From a virus, in IMG/VR virus record IMGVR_UViG_3300020474_000019, positions 1-54,382 of that record: DNA of 54,382 nt, one strand, 5' to 3'. The position numbers and the translations under genes were made by a program. Positions within the stretch are counted from its first letter, which is position 1, and every line of letters starts with the position of its first letter. Below the pieces are notes generated by a model. That model was not told the DNA's origin, searched no databases, and saw only the letters and a program-made list of their open reading frames with translations. Shown in pieces: positions 2,580 to 53,608 of the stretch.

Positions 2580-3152
2580 TTATATGCCTGGTTGTCCTTG
2601 AACAATTTCTTCTACATAGATTTTACTATTAGAACCAGCAGTTTCATTTATGTGTGAAATACTATAACATGATCTTGCAGTTGCATCACCAGTAAAAGTT
2701 GCAGTTGAACTACCGTCAACAGCACCAAGTGTAATTGTTGTAGAACCTATTGCAGATACATTAACATTTGTTAGTAGTGTATTCCATGCAGAAACATCAG
2801 CATCTACTACAGATATTTGATCACCTACAGCAAAAGGATGATTTATACCACTTCCTTCGCCTCTATCTGCAACTGTTAGTACCACTGGGTCAGCAGAACT
2901 TGCAGCTGTAATTTGAATTGCTTTTGGTCTTTCTTCTGGTATCATAGTGATTACACTATTCCCATCTACGAAACTTCCGTTAGTTGCTGTAACTGTCGTA
3001 CCCTCTTGTGTTATTTTGACAAAACCATTCTCTCCACCATGTTCCGAAATTCTGATAGCAGAACTTGGCCCTAATGGCCCTAGAACTAAAGCGGCTGCGC
3101 TGTCATTTGCCTGAACGATTTTACCAATGTGTCGTAACATTTTAAACGCCAT
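2580..3152 (-). CDS. Putative head-associated structural protein, unknown
   Basis: 190 aa, not recognised as a T4 family. It is beta-rich and Ser/Thr/Val/Gly-rich with few charges (for example TVTATNGSFVDGNSVITMIP), no signal peptide and no membrane segment. The start ATG has GGAGAATAAA directly upstream. It lies between the gp68-like core gene and gp21, a position with no counterpart in T4, so a capsid decoration or internal head protein is a reasonable guess from context only. The C-terminus reads SKIYVEEIVQGQPGI, compatible with a terminal beta-strand. Confidence 0.8.
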   Translation of the reverse strand: MAFKMLRHIGKIVQANDSAAALVLGPLGPSSAIRISEHGGENGFVKITQEGTTVTATNGSFVDGNSVITMIPEERPKAIQITAASSADPVVLTVADRGEGSGINHPFAVGDQISVVDADVSAWNTLLTNVNVSAIGSTTITLGAVDGSSTATFTGDATARSCYSISHINETAGSNSKIYVEEIVQGQPGI

Positions 3153-3161
3153 TTTATTCTC

Positions 3162-3404
3162 CTATATGTCTAAAATCTCTCGTTCAAAGTACTTGATTAA
3201 ATCTTTCTCTGGAACGCTATTTTTTTTCGCTACATTTTTAATTGTTTTTTCAAAAGTATTTAGGAAATCGGAAGGTTTATCGTCCATAACTTTGAAAATT
3301 CCGTCCACAGCTTTTTTCATCCTAGGCGACAATTTCTTGTACTCCTTAGATTTTTTGTGTTCGTCCTTTTCAAGAACTGTACTGTATAAACCTTCAAACT
3401 CCAT
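3162..3404 (-). CDS. 68: Prohead core protein gp68-like
   Basis: 80 aa, Lys/Glu-rich and helical, containing LSPRMKKAVDGIFKVMDD. The position (portal, gp67-like, this gene, protease) equals T4 gene 68, a minor prohead core component that influences head length. Its ATG overlaps the stop of the preceding gene (TAATG), indicating translational coupling. Assignment rests mainly on synteny and composition, since gp68 proteins are very divergent. Confidence 0.75.
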   Translation of the reverse strand: MEFEGLYSTVLEKDEHKKSKEYKKLSPRMKKAVDGIFKVMDDKPSDFLNTFEKTIKNVAKKNSVPEKDLIKYFEREILDI

Positions 3405-15530: not shown

Positions 15531-16177
15531 TAGTAATGTCCTAATAAATCCATCTTTTCAAGACATGATGGACATTGTTTACATGGTTCTTTTTTCTGTT
15601 TATAACAACTTATAGTTTCTGTAAGTAATTCATCAGCATTATGTTCTTTTATATAATCTATAATCATAGACTTTGTATAATAAGATATGGGTCTATGTAT
15701 AGTATATTCCCATCTGTTCTGTGGCATATAAGTTTTTTTAGTTTCTATAACATGACTATTTAATAAAAGTTTTGCTACTGCTTGTGGATATTGTCTTTCA
15801 CATTGTTTTAATTGTTGTTCTGTTAAATTTGTCCTCACTCTTCCATGTAATACATTTTTGATATTGTGTTCTTCCATAAAAATACTTCTATGTTCGTGAT
15901 CTGCTTTTCCCCTATGTGAATAATAAGATTTATCATAGTAGTTATCATAATCAAAATGTGTTTTCCAATTTATCTTTCCAAATTTATTTTTGACATATCC
16001 CCAGACAAATTTAGCAGCCTCAAGTGTATCTGGTTTATCGTATCCAGTTATTGCATATACTTCGGTTGTACGATGTGTTATTGTATATTGTTTTGCTACC
16101 ATATAAAGTAGAGCTGCTGAATCTATTCCACCAGAAAGACTTACCAGAACCTTGTCAAAAGAATCTAATTTATGCAT
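15530..16177 (-). CDS. QueC-like PP-loop ATPase
   Basis: 215 aa. The PP-loop SGGIDS is at 15-20 in KVLVSLSGGIDSAALLYMVA. Near the C-terminus C191, C199, C202 and C205 form a CX7CX2CX2C zinc site, the arrangement seen in QueC (7-cyano-7-deazaguanine synthase). QueC converts 7-carboxy-7-deazaguanine to preQ0 with ATP and ammonia. Overall similarity looks low, so another ATP-dependent amidation or thiolation is possible. The ATG at 16177 is chosen because AGGA lies 8 nt upstream; it starts inside the TctA gene. No QueD, QueE or FolE partners are in the window. Confidence 0.72.
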   Translation of the reverse strand: MHKLDSFDKVLVSLSGGIDSAALLYMVAKQYTITHRTTEVYAITGYDKPDTLEAAKFVWGYVKNKFGKINWKTHFDYDNYYDKSYYSHRGKADHEHRSIFMEEHNIKNVLHGRVRTNLTEQQLKQCERQYPQAVAKLLLNSHVIETKKTYMPQNRWEYTIHRPISYYTKSMIIDYIKEHNADELLTETISCYKQKKEPCKQCPSCLEKMDLLGHY

Positions 16178-17669
16178 AATCAATCCTAGCATTTTTATTT
16201 AGTAAACCAAATAACACAATACCTACTCCTACAATAATACAAATAGTAAGTGTCGGATGATTGAACCAAATATCGTTACTAAGATATTTATTATTATAAA
16301 AATACATCCCTTGTAGTTTTTCTATGCCAGATAAAAACTGATCGTATATAATGAAAGACAGAATAAATGCTGGTCTACTAAACTTATATGTTCTCATACC
16401 CCATCCAATTATGGACAGAATAAACATCATGAGTAAATCCTCTTCCCAAGTAATCCACCCACTATACGACAATGCTGTGTAGATGGTCAGTAGTGTCAGA
16501 GGTACTATCCACCAATATGGGTTTATATATAAAATTCTTGAAAGATACCTTGCACCCCATATCAACACAATTCCAGAGATTATAGTTCCCAGAATATATC
16601 CCCAGAAGATAGTCTCAAAAAATTGTTGATCCTCTAGTAAGTCTGTAGTGCCTACATCAAAGCCTAAGTATACCCATAGCGCAGCTAAATATGCATACAT
16701 TTTATTGCCTGGAATACCAAAAAATAATGTGGGAAGTAATGCACCAATCTTTCCAGCGTTGTTTGCTCCTTCTGAACCGATTACACCTTTGATATTTCCG
16801 TTACCAAATTTTTCTGTTTTATGAATTGATCGTGTAATAGAGTATGACATCCAATCGCCAGTTCCACCACCACCGCCAGGCATGATACCACCGATAAAAC
16901 CAACCCATCCACCAATCATCGCTGTCCATTTATATTTCCAAACCTCAACAATACCTTCCCAAGTTTGTTTGTTGTGTTCTTTAATTTCTATCTTTTTAAA
17001 TTCGTGTTTTGCGATTAGTGTTTCGATCATCTCTGGTATGACAAATAAACCCACACCTACAAGAACAAGTTTTACACCATCGTTTAAGTATGTCCAACCA
17101 AGATTATATGCTTCATTTGACCATTCATCTAGTCCAATCTGTGACAACCAACATCCAAACAATACAGCGATTATACTTCTTACTGTATACTTACTTGTTA
17201 TAACAGCGACTAAACAAAATGATAAGAATAAAATGCCAGTTAACTCTGGTGTTCTTACAGCGTCATTTATTTGCATGTATAGTGGAAAGAATGAGAACCC
17301 TAGAAATCCAAAGATTAAACCATTCATGGTTGATGTGAAAAGTGCAGAAGATAAAGCATAAGATGCTCTACCTTTCTTTGCAAGTGGATATCCATCCACC
17401 ATTGTTGCAGCTGTTCCGTTTGCCCCAGGCACACCTAATAGAACACTTGCATATGAATCACCTATGGAACATGCAACAACTGTCACCATAGAAAAAAGGA
17501 CAAAGAGATACTCTGCCCCATCAAAAAAACTTACTACTCCAAAGAGTAGTAGAATTGCTTTACCAGCACCAGCAGAAGGTACAAGACCAATGAGACCACC
17601 ATAAACACAACCTAATGCGATTATGATGGCCCATTGATAGACTTCTTCTAATTGAAGAATTGACTCCAC
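16170..17669 (-). CDS. tctA: TctA-like large permease subunit of a tripartite tricarboxylate transporter
   Basis: 499 aa, the normal TctA length, with about 11-12 hydrophobic segments. Signatures of both internal repeats are clear: GDSYASVLLGVPG...AATMVDGYPLAKKGRA (69-102) and GGIMPGGGGGTGDW, then GSEGANNAGKIGALLP and TLFFGIPGN. TctA is the inner-membrane, cation-coupled permease that takes carboxylates from a TctC binding protein. The start is GTG, with AAGGTG 8 nt upstream, and overlaps TctC by 22 nt, so the two are translationally coupled. The small subunit TctB is not present in the window. A transporter of this type is very unusual in a tailed phage. Confidence 0.93.
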   Translation of the reverse strand: MESILQLEEVYQWAIIIALGCVYGGLIGLVPSAGAGKAILLLFGVVSFFDGAEYLFVLFSMVTVVACSIGDSYASVLLGVPGANGTAATMVDGYPLAKKGRASYALSSALFTSTMNGLIFGFLGFSFFPLYMQINDAVRTPELTGILFLSFCLVAVITSKYTVRSIIAVLFGCWLSQIGLDEWSNEAYNLGWTYLNDGVKLVLVGVGLFVIPEMIETLIAKHEFKKIEIKEHNKQTWEGIVEVWKYKWTAMIGGWVGFIGGIMPGGGGGTGDWMSYSITRSIHKTEKFGNGNIKGVIGSEGANNAGKIGALLPTLFFGIPGNKMYAYLAALWVYLGFDVGTTDLLEDQQFFETIFWGYILGTIISGIVLIWGARYLSRILYINPYWWIVPLTLLTIYTALSYSGWITWEEDLLMMFILSIIGWGMRTYKFSRPAFILSFIIYDQFLSGIEKLQGMYFYNNKYLSNDIWFNHPTLTICIIVGVGIVLFGLLNKNARIDYA

Positions 17670-18712
17670 TTGATATTCACCTTTTCACCAAAAACTTCTC
17701 TTGAAGTTTTTACATCGTTAAGCAATTCTTTACTGTTAATTGCATCAAAGATTGCAAGTTTAGAATCATTTGCATCTTCACCAAGCGCCCATGGGTATTT
17801 ACCCAACTTCTTATCTAGATGTTTCTTACTAGTTTTGTTATTTAACATCATAGTAAACGAACTAACTAGAGCATCCATATGAGGACTATCTTTTGAAAGA
17901 AATATAGTTTTACCTAAACCACTTCTTGTTTTTAGAATAAGTGCATATGCATCATAATAACGACCAGATGGTGCTTCACCCCACTTCTTTTCGTATGCAG
18001 TGTTGAACCATGCTTCTGGCATGTTTGGATCTTTTACAATCTTTCCATCGACAGAAACCCCATGAGAAAACCAGACTTTAGTTTTTCCAGATTTGATACC
18101 ACCTTTATAGGTTTTCTTCATATGAGAGAACCCATCTCTTGAAACATCAATCTCACCATTAAGGAAGGCTTTTCGTCTGTCACCAGACCCTTTCCAACCT
18201 TTGATTTGTCTCACATTAGTTTTAGAACATTCAACCAACTTATCAAAATCCATCGGCCCACATAACATCATAACAATTGACATTGCATCAACTATGGTTT
18301 CTGAACCACCACCAATATGAATGGCTGGAATTGCTGGAATATCTTTCTTTGAGAAAACAAAAGTTCCTTGATTATGTGCAACAATTGTTGCAAATGCTTT
18401 AGGGTCAAATCCACCCCAACCATCACCAGAAGTGATATACTTAATCATACCACGACTTTGAATCATAGTCTTACCATCCTTAGAAAGTTCGTTATTATAC
18501 TTAGCGTATGTTTTCTTTGGATCGCCAGGCATGTACCTAAGAACTACTTTGTGTCCATCCATTTCAAGATATTTGTTCCACTCCTTAACGACTCTTTGAG
18601 CCCATTTAGCATTACCACCCTCTGGCCCTGCTGGAACAATATATGTAAAAGTCTCTGCATATGCCGTAAACGACATAGCAGAGAATATAATTGCGAATAT
18701 CAATTTTTTCAT
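17648..18712 (-). CDS. tctC: TctC-like periplasmic solute-binding protein
   Basis: 354 aa. A Sec signal peptide (MKKLIFAIIFSAMSFTAYA) precedes FTYIVPAGPEGGNAKWAQRV, a variant of the ligand-loop strand found at the TctC N-terminus. The remainder has the two-lobe periplasmic-binding composition, with FAT-IVAHNQGTFVFSKKDI and PEAWFNTAYEKKWGEAPSG as recognisable family-like segments. It would capture a carboxylate or similar anion in the host periplasm and deliver it to TctA. Longer and more diverged than typical TctC (about 320 aa), so ligand choice cannot be inferred. The start has GAAGGA upstream and lies 18 nt after the outer-membrane-like gene. Confidence 0.85.
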   Translation of the reverse strand: MKKLIFAIIFSAMSFTAYAETFTYIVPAGPEGGNAKWAQRVVKEWNKYLEMDGHKVVLRYMPGDPKKTYAKYNNELSKDGKTMIQSRGMIKYITSGDGWGGFDPKAFATIVAHNQGTFVFSKKDIPAIPAIHIGGGSETIVDAMSIVMMLCGPMDFDKLVECSKTNVRQIKGWKGSGDRRKAFLNGEIDVSRDGFSHMKKTYKGGIKSGKTKVWFSHGVSVDGKIVKDPNMPEAWFNTAYEKKWGEAPSGRYYDAYALILKTRSGLGKTIFLSKDSPHMDALVSSFTMMLNNKTSKKHLDKKLGKYPWALGEDANDSKLAIFDAINSKELLNDVKTSREVFGEKVNIKWSQFFN

Positions 18713-23742: not shown

Positions 23743-25089
23743 CTAAAAAACTTTAACTTTTGTTTCTTTTTCAAAATCATTAGCGTGTTCCCATGTGTTA
23801 ACCATTGGTTTTCCTCTTATATTTAGGGATGTGTTTAACAACATAGGACAACCAGTTTTGTCATACCACTCTTCTAGAATAGGTCTAATTACAGATACAC
23901 AATCTTTTTCTACAACTTGAACTCTTGAAGTTCCATCTACATGTGTCACTGATGAGTAGTCGTGTTTTGATTTTGATACAAATTGCATGTATCGATTCAT
24001 TGGGCCTTCAAAGTATTCCTCTGCATATTCCTCTAGTATTGCTGGAGCAAAGGGTCTAAACTTCTCTCTTCGTTTGACTTCATTAACTGTATCTTTAATT
24101 GGTTCTCTTGGGTCAGCAATGAGTGAACGATTACCTAACGCTCTTGGGCCAAACTCTGCCCTACCATTTGCTACCCCACACATTTTATGTTTAAGTAAAT
24201 GTTTGACAACTTCTTTAGGATTTACTTCTCTTTTTATATCATATCCTAAATATGGGTGTCTCCATGTTAGTTTACGTTGCCACACCAATGCAGCCGCACC
24301 CAAAGAAGACCCAGCATCACTTGGGGATGGCATTATCCATATATTCTTACCTTGTATTTTACTATTTGCAACACAGTTTAAAGCACAACCACCCATGATA
24401 ACTAAATTTTCTTCTGGGCATTTCTCTACAAGTCTTAGTAATTCATCTTCATATACTGCTTGAACTGATGCAGCCAAATCTTCTGGTTTACCAGTGAACT
24501 TTATATCTAACCCATAGTGATTATTATTATTATCCAATCTTCTTTTTAACATTGTTTTATGTTTAGGTTCTCCAAATGCAGCCATACCCATAACAATATA
24601 TTCTTCTTCGTTTGGTTTATACCCTAACAGTTCTGTAACGGCTGAATATAACAATCCTAAAGACCAAGGATACTTACGAGAGTATATTTTCTTTAGTGTT
24701 TTATGTTGGTGAAGATTACCTTGATCGGCATACCATATTGAAGTGGTATCCCATTCTCCTATTGCATCTACAACTATAACATTTGCTTTTCGGAATGGTG
24801 ATGTATAGAAACCAGCAGCTGCATGTGTTTTGTGATGAGGGAAACACATATCATATTTTGTTTTTTTAGTTATCCAACTTTGTCCAGCATACAATCTTCT
24901 AGTGTTTTTCCAAAATGGATTTTCAAAATAAGCACGAATATTAGAAACACGAACCATACTAGAATGGATTCTACTATCATTTTTTATCTGTGAATATCGT
25001 TCACTATGTGATGCATAAAGTATTTCTCTATCTTCTATTAGAGAATAACCAGCATCGTGACTACCCTCACTAATTCCTGCTACTCTCAT
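23743..25089 (-). CDS. Carbamoyltransferase, NodU/CmcH family
   Basis: 448 aa, somewhat shorter at the C-terminus than most family members. O-carbamoyltransferases make carbamoyl-adenylate from carbamoyl phosphate and ATP in an YrdC-like domain and transfer it in a Kae1-like domain. Family landmarks: GISEGSHDAGYSL at the start, the metal ligands in PHHKTHAAAGFYTSPF, VDAIGEWDTTSIW, EEYIVMGMAAFGEP, MGGCALNCVANSKI, SPSDAGSSLGAAA, then GRAEFGPRALGNRSLIADPR, KFRPFAPAILEE and LLNTSLNIRGKPMV in the YrdC-like part. Acceptors in this family include sugars (nodulation factors), antibiotics and, in some phages, 5-hydroxymethylcytosine. The ATG is preferred over a GTG one codon earlier. Confidence 0.93.
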   Translation of the reverse strand: MRVAGISEGSHDAGYSLIEDREILYASHSERYSQIKNDSRIHSSMVRVSNIRAYFENPFWKNTRRLYAGQSWITKKTKYDMCFPHHKTHAAAGFYTSPFRKANVIVVDAIGEWDTTSIWYADQGNLHQHKTLKKIYSRKYPWSLGLLYSAVTELLGYKPNEEEYIVMGMAAFGEPKHKTMLKRRLDNNNNHYGLDIKFTGKPEDLAASVQAVYEDELLRLVEKCPEENLVIMGGCALNCVANSKIQGKNIWIMPSPSDAGSSLGAAALVWQRKLTWRHPYLGYDIKREVNPKEVVKHLLKHKMCGVANGRAEFGPRALGNRSLIADPREPIKDTVNEVKRREKFRPFAPAILEEYAEEYFEGPMNRYMQFVSKSKHDYSSVTHVDGTSRVQVVEKDCVSVIRPILEEWYDKTGCPMLLNTSLNIRGKPMVNTWEHANDFEKETKVKVF

Positions 25090-52314: not shown

Positions 52315-52642
52315 CTGATGCTTCCTTCTCTGATAGAACAACCAGACCACCTTTATTATATGCCTGTCCTATGTTATATGTTTTAGTCAATGAATACTTC
52401 TTACCCTTTAGACAAGGACTCCAATCATATTCGGATATATTCTTTTGGGGTAGTGCAACTGAAACTCGCTCAGTTTTAGGGGGTGGGGCCTTTGCTTTGT
52501 GACTAGGATTGTATCCCATACGTTTGAGATACTTTTCATGTTCTGCAATAGCGGCAGCCATTTTCTCCGTAACTCTCTTCTTTCTACGTTTCTTGTGATT
52601 GTTGGTAGTCCAATATGCTGGAAGTAAATGCATACCACTCAT
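52289..52642 (-). CDS. Basic hypothetical protein (117 aa)
   Basis: Very basic N-terminal half (NNHKKRRKKRVTEKMAAAIA) with a Pro/Lys linker (KAKAPPPKTERV) and a compact C-terminal part (YSLTKTYNIGQAYNKGGLVV). Nucleic-acid contact is plausible from composition only. The ATG overlaps the stop of the 30-aa gene (ATGA), so it belongs to the coupled small-gene run. Confidence 0.75.
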   Translation of the reverse strand: MSGMHLLPAYWTTNNHKKRRKKRVTEKMAAAIAEHEKYLKRMGYNPSHKAKAPPPKTERVSVALPQKNISEYDWSPCLKGKKYSLTKTYNIGQAYNKGGLVVLSEKEASDASTGKRR

Positions 52643-53423: not shown

Positions 53424-53469
53424 GTAAATTCTTTAAGTACCTACTATTGCATTTATAGATTGCCCCAAG

Positions 53470-53478: not shown

Positions 53479-53515
53479 TTTTAACCCCCCCTTATGCTAG
53501 CTGGTAGGGAACATC

Positions 53516-53595
53516 AGAGAGCTACTCAACACATCATGACACCATCGTTATGGAACTTTCTCTGTCAACCAACCCACCTTAATGAGCAGCTCTCT
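53516..53595 (-). ncRNA. Candidate structured small RNA or leader element
   Basis: On the minus strand, positions 53595-53583 and 53528-53516 form a 13-bp stem (12 Watson-Crick pairs and one G-U). Inside, TGACA/TGTCA (53567-53563 with 53541-53537) and the adjacent CCAT-AACG-ATGG (53553-53542) form a second stem-loop with a one-sided bulge. The outer stem starts about 7 nt after the predicted start of promoter P2. No open frame of note runs through it and no known RNA family is recognised. It could be a stable sRNA or the 5' end of the operon mRNA. Confidence 0.5.
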
Positions 53596-53608
53596 TCTGA
53601 TTCTCTTT

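Follow-up and report, generated by a model that had tools for sequence, protein, structure and literature searches.

In the window, by which we mean the whole 54,382-nt stretch of viral DNA analysed here, a 458-nt intergenic region separates a run of small genes from a nucleotide-sugar epimerase fragment with a 52-aa frame. The genes listed around it are on the minus strand, as are the features of the region located below, and the epimerase gene (phrog_540) is upstream of the folded element that concerns us here. The phage is a T4-like ocean phage that belongs near the Kyanoviridae infecting SAR11 and OM43, and its terminase is 70.7% identical to that of Melnitz and 69.4% to that of HTVC008M. 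Elsewhere in the window, two adjacent genes (16170-18712, minus strand) look by eye like the membrane component and the binding protein of a tripartite tricarboxylate transporter, which is unusual in a phage.

Three predicted sigma70-type promoters, all of the early host type, stand in tandem within the intergenic region. P1 (53749..53777, TTGACA-17-TATAAT) agrees with the consensus at 12/12 positions and is near-invariant in the related contigs L002 to L005; P2 (53609..53637, TTGACA-17-TAGTAT, with an extended -10, TGG) comes directly before the RNA element and its 29-mer is conserved in the relatives except for one base; P3 (53395..53423, TTGACA-17-TATGCT, extended -10) heads the small-gene run. 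The first gene after P3 (53148..53363) encodes 71 aa without a Pfam match, and a database search with this protein alone returned no relatives. Three repeats were seen in the surroundings: an 11-nt tandem duplication between P1 and P2 (53648-53671; GGCAGCCGCTG twice on the minus strand), present as a single copy in L005; a block upstream of P1 (53850-53900, minus strand), TCGGACACT...AACATA.AGTTGTTGTG, that recurs before promoters in L129, L131 and L176; and G or C runs that lead into (T)TAAAACT(G/C)AG, which recur near the element in both senses (52475-52500 and 53480-53500 in the window, 1660-1680 in L129 and 1585-1605 in L143).

Architecture of the folded element

The element spans 93 nt (53510..53602), with its 5' end approximately at the predicted start of P2 near 53602, and the 80-nt segment within it (53516-53595) begins 7 nt further on, which agrees with the gap of about 7 nt given in the initial annotation. 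Folding of the minus strand, the coding strand here, recovered all the parts that had been proposed, namely a 13-bp outer stem, a two-part inner stem-loop and an asymmetric bulge. The closing stem is formed by AGAGAGCUGCUCA (5' arm, 53583..53595) and UGAGUAGCUCUCU (3' arm, 53516..53528), making 13 pairs that include one G-U. Inside it is a large asymmetric internal loop, the 5' side of which (UUAAGGUGGGUUGGU, 53568..53582) is invariant in L002 and L005 and has two differences in the more distant copy of L169. Then come a 5-bp helix (UGACA, 53563..53567, with UGUCA, 53537..53541), a 9-nt one-sided bulge (GAGAAAGUU, 53554..53562) and a 4-bp helix with a variable 4-nt loop (CCAU-AACG-AUGG, 53542..53553), the 5-bp helix stacking on CCAU/AUGG across the bulge. 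Read from the bases, the place just outside the closing stem sets 5'GA against 3'AG, possibly a tandem sheared G-A, followed by two further pairs; L002 has only Watson-Crick pairs at this place, giving a stem of 16 bp.

The folding energy of the 80 nt was -25.9 kcal/mol against a mean of -18.4 in shuffled sequences (z = -2.5; 2/200 shuffles equally good). The uninterrupted closing stem scored 30.5, against 20.2 +/- 2.5 in dinucleotide shuffles of the 458-nt region (n = 300), and because none of these 300 reached 30.5, chance does not explain the stem. Among the uninterrupted stems of at least 12 pairs in the 54-kb window (loop up to 80, at most 3 G-U), it is the richest in G-C pairs (6 pairs; the next has 5). 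These comparisons with shuffled controls, which had been proposed as a check, bear out the earlier impression that the pairing is far better than expected, and the statistic is weaker in the L169 copy (z = -1.7). The plus strand also folds (z = -3.3), and we rejected that reading because its stem has an A-C mismatch and the changes in the relatives break its pairs further.

Conservation and compensatory changes in related phages

The intergenic region is present in four viral contigs, of which L005 is 99% identical to the window over 201 bases and L002, L003 and L004 are 77% identical, the last three being identical to one another within the element. In L005 the G-U of the closing stem has become A-U. 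In L002 the stem has changed from G-U to G-C, from C-G to U-G and from U-A to U-G, in each case with pairing kept, and a one-base deletion on each side removes exactly one pair. The bulge of L002 to L004 holds 14 extra bases, which themselves form a hairpin (UAGCA-GCUC-UGCUA). The unpaired core is identical between the window and L002 at 32/32 positions, while the closing stem and the apical loop differ.

A covariance model (R1) built from three close sequences and run against 80 loci found a distant copy in L169 (E = 5.5e-7), which comes from another phage, with a gp6-like protein 64% identical. The order of the genes is kept there, the window's 117-aa protein having a homologue (33% identical) that follows in it. 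A TTGACA-18-TATAAT sequence lies about 110 nt before the copy, and the predicted L169 transcript does not have the element at its 5' end. In this copy G-C has been replaced by C-G in the 5-bp helix, the 4-bp helix reads CCCA/UGGG instead of CCAU/AUGG, with double changes in two pairs, and the closing stem is different in sequence and nevertheless formed. On the alignment fitted to the model, 7/24 pairs were changed on both sides. As such an alignment leans to the model, the count was repeated on a structure-free MAFFT alignment, where 6/22 pairs, distributed over all three helices, had changes on both sides; 0/500 shuffles were as high, and sliding the partners by 1-3 columns left 0 or 1. The number of distinct sequences is four, three of them close, and we regard the covariation support as good but not overwhelming. 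Homologues that break pairs without compensation had been named as the observation that would speak against an RNA, and the covarying pairs sought in related phages point the other way. Because the shape is kept by matched mutations in the relatives, the folded element is probably a real functional RNA.

With Rfam 15 at the gathering threshold there were no matches in the whole window; relaxing the threshold to E 10 for the element gave only two irrelevant eukaryotic or archaeal families on the other strand, the L169 copy had no match up to E 5, and ARAGORN detected no tRNA or tmRNA. A description of the element was not found in the literature searched, a search of limited extent. We call it a putative new structured-RNA family of phages, and the proposal of a new structured RNA downstream of P2 is upheld by the fold statistics, the compensatory changes and the lack of an Rfam match. 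Sub-threshold Rfam matches in L129 gather at its terminator, and we attributed them to chance.

Searches with the covariance models R1 and R2 found no copy in HTVC008M, Mosig, Melnitz and 22 further contigs, many of which stop short of the syntenic site; as only about ten of the fetched loci extend to that place, absence elsewhere is weakly supported. An exact-pattern scan with the degenerate core matched nothing in bacterial and archaeal genomes (one per species), which excludes close copies only, and when the intergenic region was compared with phage records at the nucleotide level, only short chance matches appeared. An exact match of GGTGGGTTGGTTGACAGA in L009 lies inside a coding gene and was discarded as chance. 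Fuzzy matches to the core were seen on the other strand in L129, L164, L168, L173 and L175.

A proposed trans-acting early RNA and its competitors

The reading that we prefer, with a probability of about 0.5, is that of a non-coding structured phage RNA transcribed early from P2 by host sigma70 and acting probably in trans. Its basis is the closing stem of 12-16 pairs, the inner stem-loop with its one-sided bulge and the near-invariant internal loop across the relatives. Host RNA polymerase would transcribe the RNA early in infection, the long stem at its very 5' end may make it stable, and the nearly invariant internal loop (UUAAGGUKGGUUGGY...AAAGUUCC...) could be the surface through which it works, by binding a protein or a second RNA. 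Most likely, the RNA would act on some component of the host, in takeover or in counter-defence, in the way envisaged for the small early protein genes downstream that have their own promoters. A role in trans is preferred because an identical RNA precedes different first genes (L002 compared with L003 and L004), because P3 and a late-promoter-like element lie between the RNA and the genes, and because the cassettes downstream are small genes with early-type promoters of their own. The labels "stable sRNA" and "anti-host RNA" given in the initial annotation would both fit such an element. P2, directly ahead of the element, is recognised as a promoter by its match to the consensus alone, and a scan between the element and P3 found no terminator-like site. 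A discrete small RNA would hence need processing, and the lack of a terminator is the chief argument against a separate small RNA. The position of the L169 copy, away from the predicted 5' end, also speaks against the preferred reading, as does the small number of distinct sequences. When the window's own sense strand was examined for an antisense target, complementarity to the core nowhere exceeded 9 nt, which likewise speaks against it.

The strongest competitor, which we nonetheless consider unlikely, is that the element is a cis-acting leader, or a riboswitch-like aptamer, in the 5' untranslated part of a transcript that starts at P1 or P2 and continues into the small genes. Near-invariant loop letters together with covarying stems have the appearance of an aptamer, the element is in the 5' part of the operon without a terminator between it and the genes, and SAR11 hosts depend heavily on riboswitches, Melnitz and Mosig themselves having a glutamine riboswitch (PMC9004378). 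However, P3 and the late-promoter-like element intervene before the genes, no Rfam riboswitch matches, and the terminator scan and the folding of the downstream part disclosed neither an alternative terminator nor a masked start site. Nor is the element constantly associated with the same gene: L003 and L004 hold at about 2900-3210, relative to L002, an extra cassette with a near-identical P3 and a small gene (MAVHVFGMTDDQ...), so that the first gene differs under an identical RNA. Such modules of promoter plus small gene appear to have been gained and lost. The suggestion that the element is a leader controlling the small-gene run is accordingly weakened by the different first genes, the intervening P3 and the lack of a visible terminator or ribosome-site switch.

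Less probable still is that the element has no role of its own and serves a long early transcript as a hairpin for RNase processing or for stability. The long closing stem, the lack of a terminator and the tandem promoters before and after the element are compatible with it, but such a hairpin has no need of a near-invariant single-stranded core, and here conservation is higher in the core than in the stem. An element acting as DNA, whether as an inverted repeat to which a protein binds or within a replication origin or a packaging site, might be suspected from the conservation of the entire intergenic region with its several promoters, and a T4-type origin could occupy such a place; this reading is very improbable and seems largely refuted, since pairs are kept through G-U combinations that exist on the minus strand only (one in the window and several in L002), and such pairs would not be preserved in a DNA palindrome. 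That the element is part of a small protein-coding gene is hardly credible and was rejected, because the 48-codon frame across it in the window, although also open in L169, has no conserved start or stop in the relatives, is shifted in L002 by the 14-nt indel, which forms a hairpin in the bulge, and crosses a sequence whose changes track base pairs rather than codons.

The syntenic site and known structured RNAs of phages

Some 50-70 nt after the RNA element lies AATCTATAAATGCAATAGTAG (53441..53461), which has a counterpart at the syntenic place of many related phages. Of 14 records searched, 13 contain closely similar 21-mers, usually one each, with a second match of 3 mismatches in G000 and G004. 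The 17-21-nt element AATCTATAAATGYAATA(AGTA), also denoted the AATCTATAAATGYAATAA element,, to which the window's 53441-53461 belongs, is usually found once per genome in diverse relatives (HTVC008M 23934-23954; Melnitz 74311-74331; L129 1618; L143 1615; L165 923; L169 1985; L176 3195; L182 747; L187 1994). We infer that AATCTATAAATGCAATAGTAG is late-promoter-like because it contains TATAAAT and because T4-type late promoters are real in this genome: TATAAATA occurs 15 times on the minus strand and 3 times on the plus strand, seven of these being 25-68 nt before gene starts. The conserved flanks of AATCTATAAATGCAATAGTAG are much longer than a late promoter needs.

Other phages have different folds at the syntenic place. 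In L129 (1491-1553) and L176 (3067-3129) there is a common 11-bp stem, an asymmetric loop and an inner 11-bp stem-loop, with sequence changes that leave the pairing intact, and in L165 (829-887) and L187 (1895-1955) a long hairpin whose stem letters differ yet pair and whose loop ACAUGGAUACAUG is conserved; with two sequences each, both pairs are too few for a statistical claim. The stretch in L129 and L176 also contains the letters AGGUGGGU of the window's core, and a second possible 3' partner downstream, AUCU(A)GGGG, could make the structure bistable. Further, L129 (1080-1345) and L176 (2650-2885) have a sigma70-like promoter and a strong intrinsic terminator (AACCCAGAC...GTCTGGGTTTTTTT), separated by about 200-230 nt in which no gene is clear; this looks like a candidate stand-alone small RNA gene. 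Tentatively, and with more doubt than confidence, we propose for this phage group an "RNA island", a syntenic intergenic site that runs from early host-type promoters to the late-promoter-like element and carries unrelated, fast-replaced structured RNAs: type A in the window and L169, type B in L129 and L176, type C in L165 and L187.

Few structured RNAs are known in the T4-like marine phages of SAR11 and OM43, despite the great abundance of these phages. A pelagimyophage survey with Riboswitch Scanner reported no riboswitch (PMC7029224), and Melnitz and Mosig carry a two-piece tmRNA, placed in Melnitz just after an early promoter, and the glutamine (glnA) riboswitch (PMC9004378). Our element resembles these as a structured RNA of related Kyanoviridae, which are marine myophages, and differs in having another fold and no Rfam or ARAGORN match, R2 being empty in both genomes. 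The same general likeness holds for the structured RNAs of T4-like cyanophages, among which CfrI, PhotoRC-II, wcaG, manA, glnA and abiF have been described (PMC9964418). An epimerase gene near the element is what wcaG would suggest, but this gene is upstream of the element and not downstream, and no relevant Rfam family matched up to E 10. The early mRNA of phage T7 carries RNase III sites, which are similar to the element in being long stems that lie between early genes and enclose a large internal loop; they differ from it in that the internal loop of the element is nearly invariant and its stem changes. With phage-encoded small RNAs (reviewed in PMC12197685) the likeness is one of general features, a non-coding RNA with a host-type promoter (here recognised by consensus) in a phage genome, the visible difference being the terminator that the element lacks.

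An RNA supported by covariation behind an early host-type promoter offers a concrete target for infection transcriptomes. The proposed RNA island can be likened to the islands of small anti-host proteins in other phages, and if it is true, phages would use exchangeable RNAs, and not proteins alone, in the early takeover of streamlined hosts.
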